A program made the translations under genes and the position numbers. This document shows positions 16,768 to 16,842 of a stretch of DNA of 20,229 bases, piece by piece. The stretch's first letter is position 1. Every line of letters begins with the position of its first letter. The stretch comes from a virus: positions 1 through 20,229 of the IMG/VR virus record IMGVR_UViG_3300047666_000303. One strand, written 5' to 3'. The notes under the pieces were generated by a model. The model was given only the letters and a program-made list of their open reading frames with translations, had not been told where the DNA came from and did not search any database.

Positions 16768-16842
16768 TTAAGACTCGTTCATTACGTACATAGTAACTTC
16801 AAAGCCAAAGCGTAACTCAGTTGCTGCTGGTGTTGTCCACAT
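16768..16842 (-). CDS. pqqA: PqqA-like precursor peptide (24 aa)
   Basis: PqqA is the short peptide whose Glu and Tyr are joined by the radical-SAM enzyme PqqE (with chaperone PqqD) and then cut out to become the cofactor pyrroloquinoline quinone. This 24-codon frame begins [11 protein letters not shown] and carries FEVTMY, with Glu15 and Tyr19 at the same positions as in Klebsiella PqqA (23 residues). Trp2, Pro5, Leu10, Arg11, Gly13 and the EVTMY core all match the gamma/betaproteobacterial type. Differences are Thr4 where Lys is usual and a C-terminus NES instead of NR or NK. A TGGAG site lies seven bases before the ATG. No pqqB-E gene is present in the window, so the peptide would need host enzymes. 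It stands alone in the genome-end region, where T7-like phages often carry acquired genes. Confidence 0.85.
   Translation of the reverse strand: [24 protein letters not shown]

Follow-up and report, generated by a model that had tools for sequence, protein, structure and literature searches.

A solitary pqqA gene at the genome end of a T7-like virus and its likely role in the supply of PQQ precursor to Methylophilaceae hosts

Introduction

Does a short reading frame near the genome end of a virus encode a true PqqA, the precursor peptide of PQQ, and what would a phage gain from this one gene of the pathway? The question was raised by a first-pass annotation made from the letters alone. We examined it in the window, that is, the whole stretch of DNA analysed (20,229 bases, equal to the complete virus record), in named phages, in viral contigs of IMG/VR and in the genomes of Methylophilaceae.

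Identification of the pqqA gene

The gene and its translation signal are located as follows.
16768..16842, minus strand: pqqA, 24 codons plus stop codon; PF08042 and TIGR02107; found at the same locus in L130 and twice in L131
16850..16853, minus strand: ribosome binding site GGAG, from the sequence, 7 nt before the pqqA ATG

L130 and L131 are virus contigs whose terL proteins are 84% and 81% identical to that of the window, and they carry pqqA at the same place. The first-pass annotation gave the 24-codon frame with exact coordinates and without a strand; the strand is minus, and a plus-strand reading of 16768-16842 was rejected since there is no open frame. The product is M1 W2 T3 T4 P5 A6 A7 T8 E9 L10 R11 F12 G13 F14 E15 V16 T17 M18 Y19 V20 M21 N22 E23 S24. 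All the residues listed earlier (Trp2, Pro5, LR at 10-11, Gly13, FEVTMY, Glu15 and Tyr19) agree with this translation, and the ExxxY spacing for the PqqE cross-link is present as E15 and Y19. The ribosome binding site described as good is the GGAG above, where atggagaaatactATG is retained in L130 and L131. The leader RNA upstream of pqqA showed no significant structure (z -1.6), and Rfam and tRNA scans gave no matches.

The Pfam search proposed in the first-pass annotation was run. The Pfam model PqqA (PF08042) matched the 24-mer with 41.2 bits (cut-off 21.1, E=1.5e-10), and the NCBIfam equivalog TIGR02107 agreed with 37.9 bits (cut-off 20). No other part of the record matched PqqA. With two curated family models above their cut-offs, the identity of the 24-residue product as PqqA is established at the level of sequence.

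The carrier virus and its gene order

Three neighbouring or diagnostic genes define the carrier.
17187..18881, minus strand: terL, terminase large subunit, the next gene upstream of pqqA (phrog_38, 3.9e-101)
18986..19249, minus strand: terS, terminase small subunit (phrog_891, 4.6e-11)
8585..11113, minus strand: single-subunit phage RNA polymerase (phrog_414, 1.1e-175)

Reading along the minus strand, an internal virion protein, terS and terL are followed by pqqA, the genome end and the early region, then by thymidylate synthase ThyX and the RNA polymerase. After the polymerase come primase-helicase, DNA polymerase (recognized by eye only), ribonucleotide reductase and a ClpP-like protease. 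Judged by this gene content and order, the carrier virus is T7-like, and the expected "genome-end region" corresponds to the interval between terL and the early region. The nearest named phage is Lauvirus lau218 (57% identity in terL, 33% in the RNA polymerase); the other nearest named phages are Roseobacter and Pelagibacter T7-like phages. The type of the peptide and the identity of the phages that carry pqqA (see below) indicate that the host is most likely a Methylophilaceae methylotroph. The first larger gene cluster past the genome end includes a 204-residue protein of unknown function (phrog_1392, 14974-15588, minus strand), which has a close counterpart in the same place in L130.

Genome-end cassette and putative promoters

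Four elements surround or relate to the gene.
16739..16769, minus strand: conserved genome-end element AAAAAATACTAAAAAAATACGTGGGGGTATC, which shares its first two bases with the pqqA stop codon
17117..17143, minus strand: probable phage RNA polymerase promoter TTTCCTAGCGAGGACTGTCTAGATAAA, directly behind terL, from motif recurrence
8517..8543, minus strand: second promoter-like copy TTTTCTAGCAAGGACTGTCTAGATAAA, behind the RNA polymerase gene, from motif recurrence
16544..16590, minus strand: three sigma-70-like sites, probable early promoters, downstream of pqqA, from consensus matches only

The genome-end element has the pattern A5-6 TA[CT]T A7 T...GGGTATC and follows terL in relatives with and without pqqA. 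It may have a role in packaging or in the terminal repeat. The distance from the terL stop to this element is 243-290 nt where pqqA is missing and 417, 456 or 691 nt where it is present. Because the element is shared by both sorts of genome and the spacing is longer with pqqA, the gene has the look of a cassette that sits between terL and this element. L131 has two tandem intact copies behind terL (12051-12122 and 12185-12256). Relatives with terL at 73-79% identity have no pqqA in the available records, including contigs of 36 and 44 kb. Since some close relatives are without the gene, either the lineage can do without pqqA or the gene goes with particular hosts. No exact repeats were found at the contig ends, and the exact genome end is therefore placed by inference.

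The motif behind terL shares 21 of 22 core bases with that behind the RNA polymerase gene, and pqqA begins about 275 nt downstream of it. The related genome G001 has its own motif three times, always intergenic and twice at the same two places as in the window. G013, a related genome without pqqA, has its own motif four times, also intergenic, and its opposite strand gave no match of similar quality. The motif behind terL is thus a probable phage RNA polymerase promoter, and pqqA would then be the sole evident gene of a short transcript. The sigma-70-like sites lie downstream, which places pqqA upstream of the probable early promoters, at the late end or in the terminal region. Upstream of viral pqqA genes, sigma-70 promoters were not in excess over shuffled sequences.

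PqqA in named phages

In the phage collection, 12 records gave a PqqA match by tblastn. Each of the nine Methylophilales phage records that were met encodes the peptide (P19250A, MEP301, Venkman, MEP401, MEP402 and four Melnitz phages, which are of unrelated types), a count that leaves out the OM43 phages MEP431-434 and HIM624-A, which are present in the taxonomy and are possible counter-examples. PqqA was also found in one uncultured podovirus record. The two remaining matches, under the name 'Acinetobacter phage MD-2021a', were left out; they have pqqABCDE with ppk and look like a bacterial contig. The contig of that name, L009 (CAKLQF020000010.1), has its ppk and full pqqABCDE operon at 1696-8054 and looks like bacterial chromosome filed as a phage.

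The prediction that ordinary ORF callers would miss so short a gene is borne out in these records. In P19250A, MEP301, Venkman, MEP401 and MEP402 the PqqA frame has no annotated gene. A hypothetical gene is annotated antisense to pqqA in Melnitz-1 (L007, 3961-4056) and over pqqA in the uncultured podovirus (L008, MW202481, 2067-2195), and both antisense genes are probably spurious. In MEP301 (L005) and Venkman (L006), around 4001-4069, pqqA is oriented opposite to its neighbours, which would suit a separate transcription unit. A text search of the papers that describe MEP401/402, MEP301, Venkman and Melnitz gave no reference to a pqqA gene. The PqqA of P19250A is 91% identical to that of the window. 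The Lake Baikal paper discussed below states that P19250A carries none of the genes it reports (PMC7678222), and this statement needs correction as regards pqqA.

Conservation in viral contigs

A scan of IMG/VR with the codons of GFEVTMY returned at least 120 stretches, and all 120 of those listed decode to PqqA. This pattern fixes Glu15 and Tyr19 and is circular for their conservation, so the search was repeated with an N-terminal pattern and with neighbour genes; the contigs of the two codon scans partly overlap. The first-pass annotation had named a broken frame, or a change of Glu15 or Tyr19, in related phages as evidence against a working peptide. The N-terminal-codon scan gave 121 copies including the window, all of them open frames that end in a stop codon and encode 23 or 24 residues. 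All 121 have both Glu15 and Tyr19, and the other positions show mostly conservative changes. Contigs chosen by neighbour gene gave the same result, with both residues kept in 99 of the 99 copies found. Where close relatives are without the gene, its absence is clean, as in L581 compared with L580, and no broken remnant was seen.

Among relatives selected by neighbour gene, pqqA is present in 64 of 80 for P19250A, and most of the others end before the site. For Venkman it is present in 31 of 80, all among the 36 closest relatives and in none more distant. The relatives of MEP401 have it in three of 12; gp67 of MEP401 was rejected as an anchor, because pqqA lies beside it in only these three and a different sequence precedes the gene in the rest. 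Clustering by shared genes at 50% identity divides the viral pqqA loci into 34 groups, many of which are single fragments, so that the real lineages are fewer.

The comparison of synonymous with nonsynonymous change, also suggested earlier, was made on codons 13-22 of 77 distinct viral DNAs. It gave pS 0.71 and pN 0.063 (pN/pS ~0.09), and the codon for Tyr19 is TAC in 41 and TAT in 36. Between the window and L130, the changes in pqqA amount to about 4.5 for the 13 synonymous sites and 2.5 for the 53 nonsynonymous ones. Strong purifying selection acts on phage PqqA in many lineages. The clean presence or absence between close relatives and the near identity of viral and host peptides could suggest recent chance capture of host DNA without function for the phage. 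We regard this as extremely unlikely, since synonymous change is near saturation while amino-acid change is almost nil, the gene is spread over many lineages, and the two intact copies in L131 are separated by about 6.5 synonymous and 1.5 nonsynonymous differences.

The gene had been described as standing alone, and tblastn with PqqB-E found no match in the window or in the other viral loci searched. In each of 20 viral contigs of 25-72 kb there is a single pqqA, and no match to pqqE passes the cut-off. PqqA in the viral loci is thus not encoded with pqqBCDE, an absence that was not counted against membership of the family, because solitary pqqA copies are normal in hosts (PMC4109929). That pqqA stands alone in most carriers might also point to a phage role unrelated to PQQ, the PqqA sequence being kept by coincidence or for binding only. 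What is conserved matches the PqqA signature and the host protein, and the carriers with known hosts infect PQQ-making methylotrophs, which makes such a role highly improbable.

PqqA in the hosts

PqqA was found in 150 of the 150 Methylophilaceae genomes searched, with 1-12 copies each (median 4) and at least two copies in 144; some copies in MAGs may sit on phage contigs. Methylophilaceae have been reported to carry 3-12 pqqA genes and single copies of the other pqq genes (PMC4109929). A study cited in PMC9851590 appears to describe multiple pqqA genes with one dominant contributor. A GTDB scan with the codons of an 11-residue PqqA stretch gave, among the matches listed, almost exclusively Methylophilaceae or unnamed Betaproteobacteria by title. 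At least one pqqB-E match by tblastn was found in 29 of 120 host loci.

Host contamination of the viral contigs was rejected, as beyond pqqA the viral loci have little in common with host pqqA neighbourhoods, L347 excepted. This GTDB contig was found by the host PqqA pattern and has many proteins in common with P19250A-like viral contigs, at up to 100% identity. It is a phage contig binned in a MAG, and host pqqA counts can include phage copies.

The most frequent viral peptide (23 residues) is also the most frequent host peptide, as would be expected of a working substrate. This bears on the possibility that the phage peptide is a decoy, which would compete with host PqqA for PqqD, tie up PqqD or PqqE and lower host PQQ, for example as a way of diverting carbon or of shutting down some function that depends on PQQ. 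Nothing would oblige a decoy to keep Glu15 and Tyr19, yet no tested copy departs from either; competition would also be difficult in hosts with up to 12 pqqA copies. We consider a decoy very unlikely.

Proposed role in PQQ supply

It is likely, in our assessment, that the window carries a true pqqA that is an auxiliary metabolic gene of a T7-like phage probably infecting Methylophilaceae, and that it feeds host PQQ synthesis and keeps methanol dehydrogenase supplied. As for its status as an auxiliary metabolic gene, pqqA lies on phage rather than host DNA (terS, terL and the RNA polymerase gene are in the same record, and isolate genomes are also carriers), and it has a homologue in every host genome searched and is under selection. 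In the proposed mechanism, the phage RNA polymerase would start at the promoter behind terL and make a short pqqA transcript, either late or at the time of replication. The 24-mer would be bound by host PqqD and cross-linked between Glu15 and Tyr19 by host PqqE, and host enzymes would finish PQQ from the phage-made peptide. Shut-off of host transcription by the phage would cut the PqqA input. On the most economical view, the phage would replace just that input, so that the PQQ-dependent methanol dehydrogenase would still be provided with its cofactor once host transcription falls.

Each PQQ made uses up one PqqA peptide as substrate, and the enzymes are reused. The phage therefore need bring only the consumable part, and the hosts already multiply only pqqA among the pqq genes. 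The supply role fits the finding of PqqA in all host genomes searched and of pqqB-E in host loci and none in viral loci. Since every methylophage isolate that was checked has PqqA, the gene probably helps the infected cell to keep oxidising methanol. The latent period of OM43 phages is long (17-20 h for MEP401), which leaves time for PqqA supply to matter. Slow turnover of bound PQQ may weaken the need for new PQQ during infection.

The peptide could also feed PQQ synthesis for another benefit, such as another dehydrogenase or redox protection during infection. Several dehydrogenases use PQQ, and L012, L021, L026, L032, L033, L036 and L087 have viral PqqA of another type than that of Methylophilaceae, so that other hosts are involved elsewhere; these divergent peptides suggest that pqqA is also present in phages whose hosts are other PQQ producers. 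We think a benefit apart from methanol oxidation improbable here, because, where the host of a carrier is known, it is a methylotroph, and because PqqA occurs together with a viral methanol dehydrogenase in a T4-like virus of Methylophilaceae (PMC7678222).

With some reservation, we lean towards a broader reading of the supply role, in which pqqA is a near-universal and overlooked signature of Methylophilaceae phages. It would have been gained repeatedly, as a clean cassette, by T7-like, Zobellviridae, P19250A/Venkman-type and T4-like phages, because the consumed PQQ precursor limits methanol oxidation during infection. The isolate records sampled for this putative universality among methylophages are the nine of Methylophilales named above.

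Comparison with known systems and significance

The window peptide resembles Methylophilaceae PqqA in length, in W2, P5, R11, G13, F14, E15, T17 and Y19, and in that the host gene too is often solitary, away from pqqBCDE. It differs by its place in a phage genome beside terL, by L10 for M10 and by the ending NES instead of NK or NR. P19250A, MEP301, Venkman, MEP401, MEP402 and Melnitz-1 have the same type of peptide (75-91% identity), also solitary, but they are other phage types with pqqA at other genome positions. Cyanophage psbA (D1) offers a parallel, as there the phage carries the fastest-used part of a host energy pathway. The two cases are analogous and not homologous, one gene encoding a protein subunit and the other a consumed cofactor precursor peptide.

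The first-pass annotation suggested that PQQ-related genes may occur in some methylotroph phages, and such a case was published in 2020: the T4-like Methylophilaceae virus VP_266 of Lake Baikal carries PqqA and methanol dehydrogenase, with a proposed boost of methanol oxidation (PMC7678222). Both viruses have a phage-borne pqqA and the same host family (inferred for the window), but VP_266 is T4-like with its own methanol dehydrogenase, whereas the window phage is T7-like, with pqqA at the genome end and no other pathway gene seen. PqqA is also listed among reservoir viruses (PMC13188868). Phage PqqA as such is therefore already known. In the literature searched, the prevalence of pqqA, the T7-like carrier, the unannotated copies in isolates, the selection test and the promoter context appear to be unreported.

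PqqA with the 11-residue stretch also offers a practical means of assigning a host to viral contigs that have none. The cultured pairs MEP401/FZCC0133 and Venkman/H5P1 are systems for asking whether the supply of PQQ precursor limits methylotrophy in infection. The medium published for OM43 includes 1 nM PQQ (PMC9004378), an amount that might mask an effect of pqqA. If the proposed role is true, a peptide of 23-24 residues, overlooked by gene callers, would let phages steer methanol oxidation, and the hosts concerned would be some of the most abundant methylotrophs of lakes and coastal seas.
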